The notes beneath the pieces were generated by a model. It did no database searches. It saw nothing but the letters and a program-made list of their open reading frames with translations, and was not told the origin of the DNA. 10,394 bases of DNA from Marinosulfonomonas sp. (GTDB lineage: Bacteria; Pseudomonadota; Alphaproteobacteria; Rhodobacterales; Rhodobacteraceae), in NCBI GenBank assembly GCA_015494385.1, contig WGBJ01000335.1:1-10394 (forward strand), read 5' to 3'. The position numbers and the translations under genes were made by a program. Below are positions 1,602 through 9,529 of this stretch, piece after piece (the stretch's first letter is position 1; each line of letters begins with the position of its first letter).

Positions 1602-1873
1602 TGCTTAACCTCGCCCATCATCACAGCCATCAAAGTAAGTGCGGAAACCATTTCTTTCGAGATCATACTAGCCTCAACATGTGCGATGATAACAATCGAA
1701 ATTGTGAAATAGGTAGAAAGTTTCATTTGGGAGCTCCCACTATAGAGCGAAGGTATTTCACTCAGGAGCCCCCTAATCTTCACACATTTTCGATTGAACC
1801 AATGCACTCGAAATTTCCAATGGGACGTCAAAAGAATCCAGGTTTGGATTCACAAGTGATTTCAGGAGTTTAG
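1601..1873 (+). CDS. Doubtful small ORF between ureB and ureC
   Basis: A 90-codon frame whose ATG overlaps the ureB stop (TAATG) and whose TAG lies 7 bases before the ureC ATG. I do not recognise the protein. It starts with a His-rich stretch ([12 protein letters not shown] at residues 6-17), has few hydrophobic residues, no membrane segment and no motif of a known family. Base composition is about 40% GC in the two lines I counted (1621-1740), far below the flanking ure genes. The tight packing against both neighbours favours a gene, and the His/Cys-rich start could be read as metal binding in a nickel operon. The odd composition, and inverted repeats inside the frame, favour decayed or non-coding DNA. 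A competing minus-strand frame exists at 1598-1726. Confidence 0.3.
1692..1705. repeat. Short inverted repeat in the ureB-ureC interval
   Basis: ACAAT, a CGAA loop and ATTGT form a five-base-pair stem. It is the first of three inverted repeats in the AT-rich interval. Alone it could be chance. Confidence 0.3.
1728..1739. repeat. 12-base perfect palindrome in the ureB-ureC interval
   Basis: TGGGAGCTCCCA reads the same on both strands over 12 bases. It is GC-rich within an AT-rich stretch, so it stands out. It could be a dimeric-protein operator. It also supplies a GGGAG on the minus strand seven bases before the ATG (1726) of a 42-codon antisense frame. The role is not known. Confidence 0.45.
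1834..1851. repeat. Perfect 7-bp hairpin just upstream of ureC
   Basis: GAATCCA, loop GGTT, TGGATTC: a perfect seven-base-pair stem ending 29 bases before the ureC ATG and 12 bases before its AGGAG (1864-1868). There is no T-run after it, so it is not a standard terminator. As RNA it could protect a processed 5' end of ureC mRNA or affect ribosome loading; this is inference. Confidence 0.45.
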
Positions 1874-1880
1874 ATTAACC

Positions 1881-3590
<1,710 letters not shown>

Positions 3591-3595
3591 GGGGG

Positions 3596-4348
3596 ATGAT
3601 GGATTCAATTTTAGATAAGGCCTATCAGTTGCAAAATGGACTTGTGGCTAGGGCTACTGGAGGAGATTTTGAAGCTCATGAATACATGAGCCTTAGATCA
3701 AGCCTGACGGAAAACATTGATACACAAAATTTGGTTCCAGACTTTGTTCGCCGCTGCAGAAACCTTGATCAATTTTGGGCGTGGATTAAAAGAGAAACCG
3801 ACGATCTGCAAAATGGGATTTGGGAAACACGGCGGCAAATAATCTGGGAAGCATTCAATCCTTTGCTCGATAGGCTGGAGCAGTCAATTTCCACTCCTTC
3901 TGACGCAATAATAAGTGATCAATTGGAGGTTTTGGACGAAGCGCATGTATCGGAAAAATGGACAAAAGCCCTTAAGCGTAGATCAACAGATCCAGAGGGC
4001 GCAATTACACTAGCCAGAACACTATTGGAAAGCGCATGCAAGATCGTTTTGGATGAAGCAGATATCAAATATAAAGATAATGCTTCTCTTCCCGCATTGT
4101 GGGATTTGACTTCTAAGCACCTTAATCTCGCACCATCCCAACATTCGGAACCCGCATTCAAAACGATACTTGGTAACTGCCAATCCATCGTTCAAACCAT
4201 AGGGAATTTGAGGAATACGATCAGTGACTCGCATGGCAAAGGGAAAGGCCCTCCCGTTAAACCAAAAGCTAGACATGCTGAACTCGTGGTAAATCTAGCT
4301 GGAACAATGGCTGCATTCCTAGCTGCTACAAAGAACGCAAAAAACTAA
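3596..4348 (+). CDS. Abortive infection (Abi_C domain) family protein
   Basis: A 250-residue protein unrelated to urease. Residues 132-242 carry the Abi_C (abortive infection C-terminus) pattern: DPEGAITLARTLLES (132-146), LNLAPSQHSEPAFKTILGNC (176-195), LRNTISDSHGKGK (205-217) and RHAELVVNLAGTMAAFL (226-242). The N-terminal part (VPDFVRRCRNLDQFWAWIK, 47-65; WEAFNPLLDRLE, 84-95) matches the front half of the same family as I recall it. R206-x6-H213 resembles the RX4-6H motif of HEPN ribonucleases; a nuclease role is inference. Members are annotated as phage abortive-infection proteins, mostly without a demonstrated mechanism. No signal peptide or membrane segment is seen. The gene is AT-rich (26/60 and 20/60 GC in two lines counted, 3601-3660 and 4021-4080), so it was probably acquired. 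It starts 5 bases after ureC; a second ATG at 3599 is an equally good start. Its TAA overlaps the ureE ATG (TAATG), so it sits within the operon and is probably expressed with it. Confidence 0.88.
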   Translation: MMDSILDKAYQLQNGLVARATGGDFEAHEYMSLRSSLTENIDTQNLVPDFVRRCRNLDQFWAWIKRETDDLQNGIWETRRQIIWEAFNPLLDRLEQSISTPSDAIISDQLEVLDEAHVSEKWTKALKRRSTDPEGAITLARTLLESACKIVLDEADIKYKDNASLPALWDLTSKHLNLAPSQHSEPAFKTILGNCQSIVQTIGNLRNTISDSHGKGKGPPVKPKARHAELVVNLAGTMAAFLAATKNAKN

Positions 4349-4803
4349 TGTCCAAATCCCTATCATCATCCCAAACCCTCCAACGCGCCAACCACTGGTC
4401 CGGCGCTCACGACCTCGTCACCCTCACCTACGACGACCGCTTCCTGCGCCGCAAGGTTCTGACCACGGCCCAGGGCGAGCGCTTCCTTGTCGATCTGCCG
4501 CAAACCACCAGCCTGAACCACGGCGATGCGTTCGAGCTGACCGATGGTCGCCTGATCGAGGTGATCGCCGCAAAGGAGCCGTTGATCGAGGTCACCGGCC
4601 CCGATCTGACCCGTCTGGCGTGGCACATCGGCAACCGCCACACCCCCTGCCAGATCGAGCCTGACCGCCTACTGATCCAGCACGACCATGTGATCCGCGA
4701 TATGCTGGCACAACTGGGCGCAACCCTGCGGGACATATCCGAACCCTTCACCCCCGAAGGCGGCGCCTATGGCCACGGGCGCACGCATGGCCATGCACAC
4801 TGA
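4348..4803 (+). CDS. ureE: Urease accessory protein UreE (nickel metallochaperone)
   Basis: A 151-residue protein with the UreE C-terminal domain: AWHIGNRHTPCQIEPDRLLIQHDHVIRDML (91-120), followed by a His-rich tail ([11 protein letters not shown], 141-151). H98, and H112/H114 in QHDH, correspond to the dimer-interface nickel site of Klebsiella UreE (H96, H110, H112). UreE dimers bind nickel and hand it to UreG in the cytoplasm. The ATG shares bases with the stop of the preceding Abi_C gene (TAATG), so ureE translation is probably coupled to that gene rather than to ureC. The tail is modest compared with the long polyhistidine tails of some UreE proteins. The 3' end overlaps ureF. Confidence 0.96.
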   Translation: MSKSLSSSQTLQRANHWSGAHDLVTLTYDDRFLRRKVLTTAQGERFLVDLPQTTSLNHGDAFELTDGRLIEVIAAKEPLIEVTGPDLTRLAWHIGNRHTPCQIEPDRLLIQHDHVIRDMLAQLGATLRDISEPFTPEGGAYGHGRTHGHAH

Positions 4804-6051: not shown

Positions 6052-6061
6052 CCGGTTACGC
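6046..6061. repeat. Near-perfect palindrome spanning both convergent stop codons
   Basis: GCGTGACCGGTTACGC is self-complementary over 16 bases apart from one G-T wobble position in each half. Its centre lies midway between the ureG TGA (6049-6051) and the LysR stop (6056-6058, minus strand). No T-run follows on either strand, so it is not a canonical intrinsic terminator; it may help stop or stabilise both transcripts. Confidence 0.45.
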
Positions 6062-6958
6062 GAACCGCGTCGAAAGCTGTTTGTTCACCGTTTCCAGAAA
6101 CCGCGCGGCGGCAACGGGCAATGTGCGCCCCTTCAGGTACCCCGCCGCCAATACCCCCGCCGGCACACCGCCAAGGTGCAGCGGCACCGATACCAGCCGC
6201 GCCTTGTCCAGATCGGGGCGCAGGTTGATCGCCAGACAAAAGCTGAGTGCAAGACTGTCCTGCGACATCAGCCGCAACAGGTCCAGACTGTTGGATTCCA
6301 CGGCGGGTTCCAGCGGAACCCCCACCTTGGCCGCGACTTCGTCCACCACCTGCCGGATACCTTCGGGTTGTTTGGGCAGCAGCAACGGGAAATCGGTGCA
6401 GTCATAGATATGCAGGTTTTCACGCCCCGCCAGCGGGTGATCCTGCGACATCACCACGAACATTTCCTGTGGTCCGGCGTAAACCGTCTGCATGTCCTGC
6501 ATGTGCATCGGCTCAAACACGATGGCGATGTCATTGCTGTTGTCCTGCAATGAATTCTCGGCCTCGCCGCGTTCATGCAGGTTGACGCCGAAGGTCACGG
6601 CGGGGAATTCGGTCAGGTGCTGTTTGATCAGGTCGGGCAGGAAATAGGCCACCACTTCGCGGGTGGTGGCGATGTTGATGTGACCGGCCCGCATACCCGA
6701 CAGATCGGCGATGCGCGATTTCACCCGCTCCATATCGGCCAGTTGGTCACGGATATGTTTCAGCAGGATCTCACCGGCGATGTTGGGGCGCAGACCGGCG
6801 GGGTGACGCTCGAAAATCTCGACGCCCAGTTCTTCCTCGACCCCCAGAATCCGGCGGTTCAGGGCAGACGGGGTGATGCCCAGCTCCTCGGCCGCACTGC
6901 GCAAACTGCCGGTGCGGGCGATTTTCTCGATGTATTTCAGCACTTGCTGGTGACGCAT
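6056..6958 (-). CDS. LysR-family transcriptional regulator
   Basis: A 300-residue protein of normal LysR length. Residues 1-60 form the winged helix-turn-helix (LKYIEKIARTGSLRSAAEELGITPSALNRRI at 7-37, then VEEELGVEIFER), followed by a linker helix and, from about residue 92 (GHINIATTREVVAYFLPDL), the periplasmic-binding-protein-like effector domain. The frame is open far upstream, through the 5' part of nirB, but the ATG at 6956-6958 is chosen because LysR homology starts exactly there and an AGGCGG precedes it. It is divergent from nirB across 126 bases and convergent with ureG, the layout of LysR regulators that activate the divergent operon and repress themselves. Nitrite reductase genes are therefore the likely target; the effector is not evident. 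I could not assign it to a named subgroup. Confidence 0.95.
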   Translation of the reverse strand: MRHQQVLKYIEKIARTGSLRSAAEELGITPSALNRRILGVEEELGVEIFERHPAGLRPNIAGEILLKHIRDQLADMERVKSRIADLSGMRAGHINIATTREVVAYFLPDLIKQHLTEFPAVTFGVNLHERGEAENSLQDNSNDIAIVFEPMHMQDMQTVYAGPQEMFVVMSQDHPLAGRENLHIYDCTDFPLLLPKQPEGIRQVVDEVAAKVGVPLEPAVESNSLDLLRLMSQDSLALSFCLAINLRPDLDKARLVSVPLHLGGVPAGVLAAGYLKGRTLPVAAARFLETVNKQLSTRFA

Positions 6959-6977
6959 GGGGTGCCCGCCTAAGGTG

Positions 6978-7026: not shown

Positions 7027-7084
7027 CATTCAAGCCGTATGACTGTTTCAAGTGATTCATATTCATGAAAAGGAATGTTGTGAC

Positions 7085-9529
7085 ATGGCGCAAAAGCTGG
7101 TTGTGATCGGGGCGGGAATGGCATCGGGGCGGATGCTGGAAGAGCTGTTCGCGCAGGATGCAGACGCCTATGACGTCACCCTTTTCGGGGCCGAGCCGCG
7201 TGGCAATTACAACCGGATCATGCTGTCGCCCGTGCTGGCCGGTGAAAAGGAATACGGCGAAATCATCACCCATGACGCCGATTGGTACCGTGAAAACGGG
7301 GTGAATTGCCGTTTCGGTGAACCGGTGGTGAAAATTGATCGCAAGGCCAAACAGGTGGTCAGCCCCGGCGGGGTGACGCCCTATGACAAGCTGGTGATCG
7401 CCACCGGCTCGGCCTCGTTCTTCATTCCGGTGCAGGGCAATGATTTGCCCGGTGTTGTCGGCTTTCGCGATCTGGACGATGTCGAAGCGATGCTGAAGGT
7501 CGCGGGCAAACCGGACGGGCAGGCCGTGGTGATTGGTGGCGGTTTGCTGGGGCTCGAGGCCGCGGCGGCGCTCAAGGAACAGGGCATGGATGTGACCGTT
7601 CTGCACCTGATGGATCATTTGATGGAGCGTCAACTGGACCCCGCCGCCGGGTATCTTTTGCAAAAGGAACTGGAAGGGCGCGGCATCAAAATTGTCTGCA
7701 AGGCCCACACGCAGGCCATTCTGGGCAAGGACCATGTCGAGGCGGTGCTGCTGGAGGACGGGCAGGTATTTGGCGCTGATCTGGTGGTGATGGCTGCCGG
7801 TATCCGCCCGGAATCATGGCTGGCGGTGGATGCGGGCCTGCGGGTCGAACGCGGCATCTGGGTGGATGATACCCTGCAGACCAGCGATGCCGATATCTAC
7901 GCCCTTGGCGAATGTGTCGAGCATGACGAGGTGGTTTACGGCCTTGTCGCGCCGCTGTTTGATATGGCCAAGGTGCTGGCGAAAACCCTGACCGGCACGG
8001 CGGCGGAATTCAAGGCACCTGTGGTGTCCTGCCAGTTGAAGGTCACGGGTGTTGATCTGTTTTCCGTCGGGGACTTTTCCGAAGGCGATGAGCGCGAGGA
8101 AATCGTGTTTCGCGACCCCGGACGCGGCATCTACAAGCGGCTGATCCTGAAAGACGACCGGATCATCGGGGTGGTGATGTATGGCGACACGCTGGACGCG
8201 GGCTGGTTTTTCGAGATGCTGAAATCCGGCGAGGATATTTCCGCCATCCGCGACACGCTGATTTATGGCCCTGCCTTTCAGGGTGGCGAAGCACTGAACC
8301 CGCTGGCGGTGGTTGCCGCCATGCCTGACAGCGCCGAGATTTGCGGCTGTAACGGCGTGTGCAAAGGCACCATCGTGCAGGCCATCCATGACGGCGCGAC
8401 CGATCTGGGGGCAATCAAGGCCGTAACCAAAGCGTCAGCATCCTGCGGCAATTGCACGGGGCTGGTGGAGCAGGTTCTGGCCAGCACGCTGGGCGATGAA
8501 TTTCAGGTGCCCGTCCCTGCGGGGATTTGCGGCTGCACCGACCATAGTCACGAGGACATCCGCCGCGTGATCAAATCGCAAGCGTTGAAATCCATTCCGG
8601 CGGTGATGCAGGAAATGGGCTGGAAAACATCCTGTGGCTGCCACATCTGCCGACCGGCGCTGAATTACTACATGATTGCCGAATACCCGCTGGAATACGC
8701 CGACGATCTGCAAAGCCGTTTCGTGAACGAACGCAACCACGCCAACATTCAAAAGGACGGCACCTATTCCGTGGTGCCCCGCATGTGGGGTGGCATGACC
8801 ACGCCACAGGAATTGCGCGCAATCGCCGATGCGGCGGAAAAATACAACGTGCCAACCATCCACGTCACCGGCGGTCAGCGGATTGATCTGCTGGGCATCC
8901 AGCGCGAGGATTTGCCGGCAATGTGGGCCGATCTGAACAGCGCCGGACTTGTCTCGGGTCACGCCTATTCCAAGGGGCTGCGCACGGTGAAAACCTGTGT
9001 CGGGTCCGATCATTGCCGCTTTGGCACGCAGGACAGCACCGGCCTTGGCATCAAGCTGGAGAAAATCCTCTGGGGGTCATGGACACCGCACAAGGTCAAG
9101 CTGGCCGTGTCCGGCTGCCCGCGCAACTGCGCCGAGGCAACCTGCAAGGATCTGGGCGTGATCTGCGTGGATAGCGGCTATCAGGTGTCGGTCGCGGGGG
9201 CTGCGGGGATGGAGCTGAAGGAAACCGAGGCGTTGGCAACGGTTGCGAGCGAACAAGAGGTGATCGATCTGGCCGTGGCGTTCATCCAGCTATACCGCGA
9301 AAGCGCAAACTATCTGGACCGGCCCTATAAATGGGTTGCCAAGGTCGGGATGGACTGGGTGATCAGCCAGGTGGTCGAGGACACAGAAAACCGCGCCGCC
9401 CTGTGCGAACGCTTCGAGATTTCCCAATCGGTTTACCGCAAGGATCCGTGGGCCGAACAGGCCAAACCCGAATACCAACCGCGCAAGTGGGCGGCACTGG
9501 CCGATCTGACATTGGAGGCAGCAGAATGA
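7085..9529 (+). CDS. nirB: NAD(P)H-dependent assimilatory nitrite reductase, large subunit
   Basis: An 814-residue cytoplasmic enzyme that reduces nitrite to ammonium with six electrons from NAD(P)H. In order: FAD-binding fold (VIGAGMASG, 7-15); NAD-binding fold (VVIGGGLLGLEAA, 148-160); BFD-type [2Fe-2S] domain with C420, C422, C454 and C457; a second Cys-rich segment with C482, C484, C517, C519 and C522; then the nitrite/sulfite reductase domain with C638, C644, C678 and C682 (TCVGSDHC and SGCPRNC) holding the [4Fe-4S]-siroheme centre. The cysteine numbers almost coincide with those of E. coli NirB. The frame is open to an ATG at 7052, but the MAQKLVVIGAG start at 7085 is chosen by homology and an AGGA at 7071-7074. 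It overlaps nirD by ATGA and is divergent from the LysR gene, its likely activator. Siroheme synthesis is not encoded in the window. Confidence 0.96.
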   Translation: MAQKLVVIGAGMASGRMLEELFAQDADAYDVTLFGAEPRGNYNRIMLSPVLAGEKEYGEIITHDADWYRENGVNCRFGEPVVKIDRKAKQVVSPGGVTPYDKLVIATGSASFFIPVQGNDLPGVVGFRDLDDVEAMLKVAGKPDGQAVVIGGGLLGLEAAAALKEQGMDVTVLHLMDHLMERQLDPAAGYLLQKELEGRGIKIVCKAHTQAILGKDHVEAVLLEDGQVFGADLVVMAAGIRPESWLAVDAGLRVERGIWVDDTLQTSDADIYALGECVEHDEVVYGLVAPLFDMAKVLAKTLTGTAAEFKAPVVSCQLKVTGVDLFSVGDFSEGDEREEIVFRDPGRGIYKRLILKDDRIIGVVMYGDTLDAGWFFEMLKSGEDISAIRDTLIYGPAFQGGEALNPLAVVAAMPDSAEICGCNGVCKGTIVQAIHDGATDLGAIKAVTKASASCGNCTGLVEQVLASTLGDEFQVPVPAGICGCTDHSHEDIRRVIKSQALKSIPAVMQEMGWKTSCGCHICRPALNYYMIAEYPLEYADDLQSRFVNERNHANIQKDGTYSVVPRMWGGMTTPQELRAIADAAEKYNVPTIHVTGGQRIDLLGIQREDLPAMWADLNSAGLVSGHAYSKGLRTVKTCVGSDHCRFGTQDSTGLGIKLEKILWGSWTPHKVKLAVSGCPRNCAEATCKDLGVICVDSGYQVSVAGAAGMELKETEALATVASEQEVIDLAVAFIQLYRESANYLDRPYKWVAKVGMDWVISQVVEDTENRAALCERFEISQSVYRKDPWAEQAKPEYQPRKWAALADLTLEAAE

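Follow-up and report, generated by a model that had tools for sequence, protein, structure and literature searches.

An Abi_C/HEPN-type gene within the urease operon of a Rhodobacteraceae bacterium and the variable ureC-ureE junction in Profundibacter

The DNA stretch analysed here, the window, is the 10,394 bp contig WGBJ01000335.1 of a Marinosulfonomonas sp. (assembly GCA_015494385.1, Rhodobacteraceae); the genus of the window and its relatives was taken as Profundibacter. An AT-rich gene, abi, was found in it between the urease genes ureC and ureE. The reading favoured with moderate confidence is that abi encodes a defence protein of the Abi_C/HEPN type, was acquired laterally, has no promoter of its own and is expressed from the urease transcript, in a junction which repeatedly captures such genes. 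This reading starts from features seen in the sequence: the gene itself, its foreign composition and sporadic presence, the HEPN fold and motifs predicted for its product, and the nuclease or defence-type cargo of the sister species.

The abi gene and its predicted product

The original prediction, made from the letters of the window and its open reading frames (ORFs), had placed an Abi_C gene between ureC and ureE. This was confirmed, as the ORF at 3596-4348 on the + strand is intact with 250 codons, and the profile search proposed at that time resulted in a match of residues 167-242 to Pfam Abi_C (PF14355, 'abortive infection family protein') with an E-value of 3.7e-19 and 69.1 bits, compared with the gathering cut-off of 24. 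The phrog_23253 profile matched residues 5-245 (E 1e-61), and the PADLOC AbiJ profile PDLC02347 matched residues 105-247 (E 9.5e-21), covering only positions 138-278 of its 281. No match was found in NCBIfam. At E≤0.001, 3168 of the 7342 scored candidates matched the protein; the observation is more than chance because of this number and because the residues of catalytic type are conserved. A match to FUSC (E 0.0019) was below the cut-off and was treated as chance.

A helical-bundle fold of the HEPN type was predicted for the last ~140 residues of the product, i.e. for the C-terminal domain at residues 111-250 counted from the first ATG (3926..4345, + strand). Both HEPN motifs defined in PMC3710099, Rx4-6H with a polar residue after R and Ex3[KR], were recognized in the 16 rows of alignment A1. 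R206 and N207 are invariant and H213 is conserved in at least 90% of the rows; these residues form the Rx6H motif R206-N207-x5-H213 (4211..4234, +), the predicted RNase active site. E145 is invariant and K149 is conserved in at least 90%, giving the motif E145-x3-K149 (4028..4042, +), and both residues are within the predicted helix 133-154. The predicted fold together with both motifs indicates that the product is probably an HEPN ribonuclease of the abortive-infection type, which supports the defence-type family assigned by the original prediction.

The abi product differs from HEPN ribonucleases and toxins such as Csm6, the HEPN proteins of HEPN-MNT systems and RNase L, the KEN domain of which is treated in PMC3710099, in that no Pfam match to CARF, nucleotidyltransferase or AbiJ-NTD was found in its N-terminal half. 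Its C-terminal part resembles AbiJ, the HEPN family of Lactococcus Abi systems, but only the C-terminal half of the AbiJ profile is covered. AbiJ proper was rejected on these grounds, since no AbiJ_NTD domain was found in Pfam and the PADLOC match is confined to the C-terminal part. AbiJ proteins lacking this domain are also described in PMC3710099. The likeness to the Abi_C family lies in the C-terminal domain, which exceeds the curated cut-off, and the difference is the location of abi inside a urease operon. No Pfam match to a DNA-endonuclease domain (LAGLIDADG, HNH, GIY-YIG, PD-(D/E)XK or Vsr) was obtained with the abi protein, and a search of solved structures by sequence gave a single match, a designed protein, at E 0.61.

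The gene order in the window was determined to be ureD (partial)-ureA-ureB-279 bp insert-ureC-abi-ureE-ureF-ureG, and UreA, UreB, UreC, UreE, UreF and UreG matched their own Pfam families. Upstream of abi lies ureC (1881..3590, +; Pfam Urease_alpha and Amidohydro_1; stop codon TAG), followed by a G-run at 3591..3595 (+) which is a probable ribosome-binding site for abi. There are two in-frame ATG codons, at 3596 and 3599, which are 5 and 8 nt past the ureC stop, respectively. The start at 3599 is preferred because the database copy P0001 (249 amino acids) and the nearest relatives P0002-P0004 begin there; this suggests a gene at 3599..4348 (+) and a product of 249 amino acids. The 5-base spacing of the original prediction holds for the first ATG and becomes 8 nt with the probable start, while its overlap with ureE stands unchanged. 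The stop codon TAA (4346-4348) overlaps the ATG of ureE (4348..4803, +; Pfam UreE_N and UreE_C, NCBIfam NF009758 above cut-off) in the sequence TAATG (4346..4350, +), where termination-reinitiation coupling is probable. As had been claimed, the operon is left unbroken by the insertion.

The guanine-cytosine (GC) content of abi is 0.43 compared with 0.64 of ureC, a shift of -0.20, and the gene is single-copy in its own genome. The Abi protein (P0001) and UreC (P0121) were each listed on two contigs, the longest being 16,218 bp in comparison with the 10,394 bp of the window. Mis-assembly of the locus is unlikely because both proteins are also listed on the longer contig. An artefact or a pseudogene was ruled out by the intact ORF, the conserved motifs and the same listing. 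Scanning for promoter- and terminator-like sites resulted in chance-level counts only. With an integron or transposon cassette in mind, a pair of repeats bracketing the insert was looked for and not found, and the neighbouring genes scanned with Pfam included no integrase.

In the proposed mechanism, abi would be translated off the urease transcript with the G-run after ureC as the ribosome-binding site, and the ribosomes would be passed on to ureE via TAATG. The N-terminal helical half (~residues 1-110) probably senses infection or keeps the enzyme inactive. The C-terminal HEPN domain (111-250), which is probably dimeric, would then cleave RNA with R206/H213 and E145, and growth would stop, giving protection against phage.

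Distribution of abi and its association with urease genes

The ureC gene was present in 84 of the 147 genomes searched, that of the window included. The loci of 80 of the other 83 genomes were fetched (all but G121, G123 and G144, with only the first copy taken from each of G010, G052 and G058), and none of the 80 carried abi. With tblastn against 110 loci in which some genomes are represented twice (the window, these 80 and a further 29 from a class sample), abi was detected in the window alone. Within Rhodobacteraceae, an abi-like match at E≤1e-5 was found in 26 of 394 genomes and a near full-length relative in 11; at E≤1e-30, relatives occurred in 9 of 385 genomes of the class sample and in 6 of 398 of the phylum sample, the window's genome being counted in all these numbers. 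The distribution of abi is sporadic, given its absence from the other ure loci and the few genomes carrying a relative in the family, class and phylum samples. The lateral acquisition claimed by the original prediction is supported by this patchiness and by the GC shift, and the core of that prediction, a defence-type gene of lateral origin in an intact operon, is well supported by the sequence. Neither the lack of an Abi_C match nor conservation of the gene in the ureC-ureE interval of relatives was found, these being the two outcomes named in that prediction as contrary to it.

Most of the full-length relatives are 41-57% identical to abi and are located on chromosomes and plasmids, and three are closer, at 78-90%. 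Plasmid homologues were found in 148 records, 17 of them covering at least 80% of the query. Only 2 of 50,697 phage records matched, both over ~60% of the query, and a phage gene in the narrow sense was therefore ruled out. As read by eye, some homologues elsewhere adjoin resolvase and TIR-like genes or an integrase and a methylase gene; others stand alone. In P. amoris (G001, complete genome of 3,558,757 bp), another AT-rich Abi_C gene of 53% identity and GC 0.42 was noticed among GC-richer ORFs at 2.098 Mb (L219:6950-7741). Two relatives in the family, L204 (G399) and L205 (G324), contain an in-frame stop.

The genomic loci of Abi_C homologues were taken as the best 80 of 179. Ure genes were found in the flank of one of 104 homologue loci besides the window, some of the flanks being only ~1.5 kb. 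This one, L112 from a Rhizobiaceae metagenome-assembled genome (MAG) and the top row of the best 80, contains ParD (E 1.4e-12), ParE (E 1.4e-16) and Abi_C (E 1.5e-22), followed by ureE 8 bp further on. Its ureD-A-B-C genes are on the opposite strand, where a gene for a MazE-type antitoxin (E 5.2e-11) lies between ureB and ureC. At L112:1495-6729, a PIN-looking ORF was also noticed by eye between ureB and ureC, giving no Pfam match at 0.01. Where both neighbours were called, 8 of 88 Abi_C loci, L112 included, were placed tightly (≤60 bp) between co-directional genes.

In the Abi_C tree, a clade with a support of 0.80 unites the gene of the window with P0002-P0004, P0066 and L193, the P. amoris copy not linked to ure genes; the L112 gene is in a different group, with weak support at the deeper nodes. 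Because of this separation, the association of Abi_C with urease most simply arose twice, and a ure-specialised Abi_C clade was ruled out. Another likely case in Profundibacter may be represented by P0002 (Abi, 90%) and P0129 (UreC, 98%), the linkage of which rests on the same 3,204 bp longest contig listed for both. In the literature searched, most subscription papers being outside reach, no study of an Abi_C gene inside a urease operon was found.

An RNase which tunes the ure mRNA or the UreE level to the nitrogen supply would be in agreement with the position of abi and the TAATG overlap, and with the recurrence of Abi_C directly before ureE in the Rhizobiaceae MAG. Such a urease-related role is very improbable, since none of the 80 further ure loci that were fetched has abi, the Abi_C genes of the window and of L112 are not sisters in the tree and a single homologue locus among 104 has ure genes in its flank. 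A conserved urease helper gene was ruled out by the same 80 loci and by the GC shift against the host, and the link of abi to nitrogen status drawn in the original prediction has no basis in the sequence.

The ureC-ureE junction within and beyond the genus

All five urease-bearing Profundibacter genomes examined carry a nuclease or defence-type gene in the ureC-ureE gap. The cargo consists of Abi_C (HEPN) in the window, AbiJ_NTD4 in P. amoris, and a PD-(D/E)XK-like nuclease, HNH with DUF559, and DUF559 among the remaining three (G003, G006 and G007). A search of solved structures with the G003 cargo gave no match. DUF559, which we take to be Vsr-like, is encoded at L032:6804-7244 (G007) and L035:6714-7091 (G006), where the genes adjoin GC-rich palindromes (CCCTCCCC..GGGGAGGG); this kind of DUF559 gene was found in 2 of 8 genus genomes, always in the ureC-ureE gap. 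At the AbiJ_NTD4 locus (L033), ~140 bp of GC-rich palindromic DNA was observed between the cargo and ureE, its core having one near match in 400 kb of the genome. The variability of the gap, the other nuclease or defence-type genes of the sister species and the Rhizobiaceae case had been missed by the original prediction.

The window, G007 and P. amoris are close lineages, their divergence at the four-fold sites of ureA, ureC, ureE, ureF and ureG being 0.12-0.28. Each of two junctions already has a different content in every one of the three, which makes the turnover fast enough to study. In 5 of 5 Profundibacter operons, the stop codon of ureC is followed by a G-rich run, beyond which the cargo starts. 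At its other end, the stop codon of the cargo shares bases with the start of ureE in the window (TAATG) and in G003 (ATGA); there is no overlap in G001, G006 and G007. The ureB-ureC cargo of G007 and G001 starts in an ATGA overlap with ureB, and the corresponding ORF of the window in TAATG. In operons with no ureB-ureC insert, the two genes mostly overlap as TGATG or TAATG (19 operons compared), and in the genus this overlap has passed to the cargo. It is inferred that mainly those insertions persist that preserve the translation of the operon; the survivors would be the ones leaving it readable, which would account for the tight stop/start junctions.

Extra DNA is common in the ure operons of Rhodobacteraceae. 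Among 81 loci, a few of which belong to other families, gaps of at least 150 bp were determined in 28 of 79 measured for ureA-ureB, 43 of 80 for ureB-ureC, 43 of 76 for ureC-ureE, 6 of 73 for ureF-ureG, 1 of 77 for ureD-ureA and 0 of 76 for ureE-ureF. In the class sample (29 loci, three from the same family), the ureC-ureE gap was below 100 bp in 26 of 28 measured. Outside the genus, the cargo is mostly host-like in composition. One of 35 ureC-ureE cargo ORFs was named by Pfam, a glycosyltransferase, and the 41 of ureB-ureC resulted in cyclase (5), LprI (5), GNAT (1) and few others; none of these 76 ORFs gave a PADLOC match at 1e-3. Recurrent cargo families were noticed in the ureA-ureB and ureB-ureC gaps of L036-L111, e.g. 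LprI and a putative cyclase (ureB-ureC). Outside Rhodobacteraceae, L289:1090-1482 has a 407 bp AT-rich ureB-ureC insert (GC 0.45 vs 0.65) with a 130-amino-acid ORF giving no Pfam match.

Since so much DNA is tolerated, with a long ureC-ureE gap in 43 of 76 loci, one lateral gene could have fallen between two operon genes by chance, the cargo of the sister species being coincidental and the operon no hot spot. P. amoris also has tight AT-rich embedded genes in other places. In 20 × 20 kb of its genome, a GC below 0.47 was determined for 17 of the 415 genes that were 70 amino acids or longer; with 171 tight junctions present, 3 such genes lay embedded between co-directional genes at tight spacing, compared with two AT-rich embedded genes in the six junctions of its ure operon. 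However, a GC shift of -0.14 or more was determined for 7 of 9 genus cargo ORFs vs 1 of 93 others (Fisher 1.5e-8), and PADLOC matches in the ureC-ureE gap for 3 of 4 genus ORFs scanned vs 0 of 35 others (Fisher 4e-4), both values being rough because ORFs were treated as independent, control ORFs were picked greedily and the genus gaps alone were read by eye. The two genus exceptions to the GC shift are the DUF559 genes, added after the gap reading. The picking, greedy by length, had missed these + strand genes of G007 and G006, and + strand genes in non-genus operons may have been missed likewise; of the 76 control ORFs, some could be spurious. Abi_C also precedes ureE in another family. On these grounds, coincidence is regarded as quite unlikely.

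It is proposed, tentatively, that the ureC-ureE junction in Profundibacter is a genus-wide hot spot in a housekeeping operon. Like a socket, it would take up single nuclease or defence genes that lack a promoter, link them by stop/start overlaps and exchange them within the genus, and neither an integrase nor an island or tRNA site would be involved; the arms of exchange may be the conserved urease genes themselves, and the same kind of site would have been used separately in Rhizobiaceae. Such a hot spot is a more interesting result than the single abi gene. Searches for defence genes usually turn to islands, prophages and the spaces between transcription units, and if the proposal is true, single defence or nuclease genes at stop/start junctions of metabolic operons are easily overlooked by island-based searches. 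Their expression would be coupled to a pathway of the host, urease in this case, and the junction would be a testable model of how a promoterless gene enters an operon and leaves it unbroken. The defence islands of E. coli, described in PMC10121019, where PF14355 is counted among Abi proteins, similarly have their defence genes at chromosomal positions between core genes; the difference here is that single genes occupy stop/start junctions inside an operon.

Route of entry and the second insert

Free-standing homing endonuclease genes are found between conserved genes, e.g. the seg and mob genes of phage T4, and the ureC-ureE cargo resembles them as single nuclease genes in such a position. 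Endonucleases of this kind (DUF559, HNH, PD-(D/E)XK) could have cut empty operons at the conserved 3' end of ureC or at the 5' end of ureE and been spread by the ensuing repair; the same recombination would later have brought in the Abi genes. The gene of the window (HEPN) and that of P. amoris (AbiJ_NTD4) are, however, Abi types and not DNA endonucleases. When the window, G007 and P. amoris were compared with one another, no rise of divergence was detected at the ureC end beside the gap (p 0.7-0.9), i.e. no exchanged tract, and for 8 of 10 genus pairs the last sixth of ureC showed no excess in the four-fold-site counts. A rise was determined for G003 against the window (29/49 vs 78/239, p 6e-4 uncorrected) and against P. 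amoris (26/48 vs 76/238, p 5e-3 uncorrected), which hints at an exchanged tract next to the gap in the G003 lineage only. Entry by homing is held to be unlikely.

The second AT-rich insert of the window, between ureB and ureC (1602..1880, +; 279 bp, GC 0.42), was not mentioned in the original prediction, and its coding status is doubtful. Its 90-amino-acid ORF looks little like a protein, and an antisense ORF at 1831-1598 contains a hydrophobic stretch. No match above the Pfam cut-off and none in PADLOC, NCBIfam or PHROGs was obtained with the insert ORF, its DNA had no relative in the other 146 genomes searched, and a plasmid search with the ORF gave no match. Further downstream, a LysR-type regulator gene was observed by eye at ~6056-6970 (-), convergent with ureG with 4 bp between the stops, and beyond it nirB/nirD-like nitrite reductase genes at ~7052-9529 (+).
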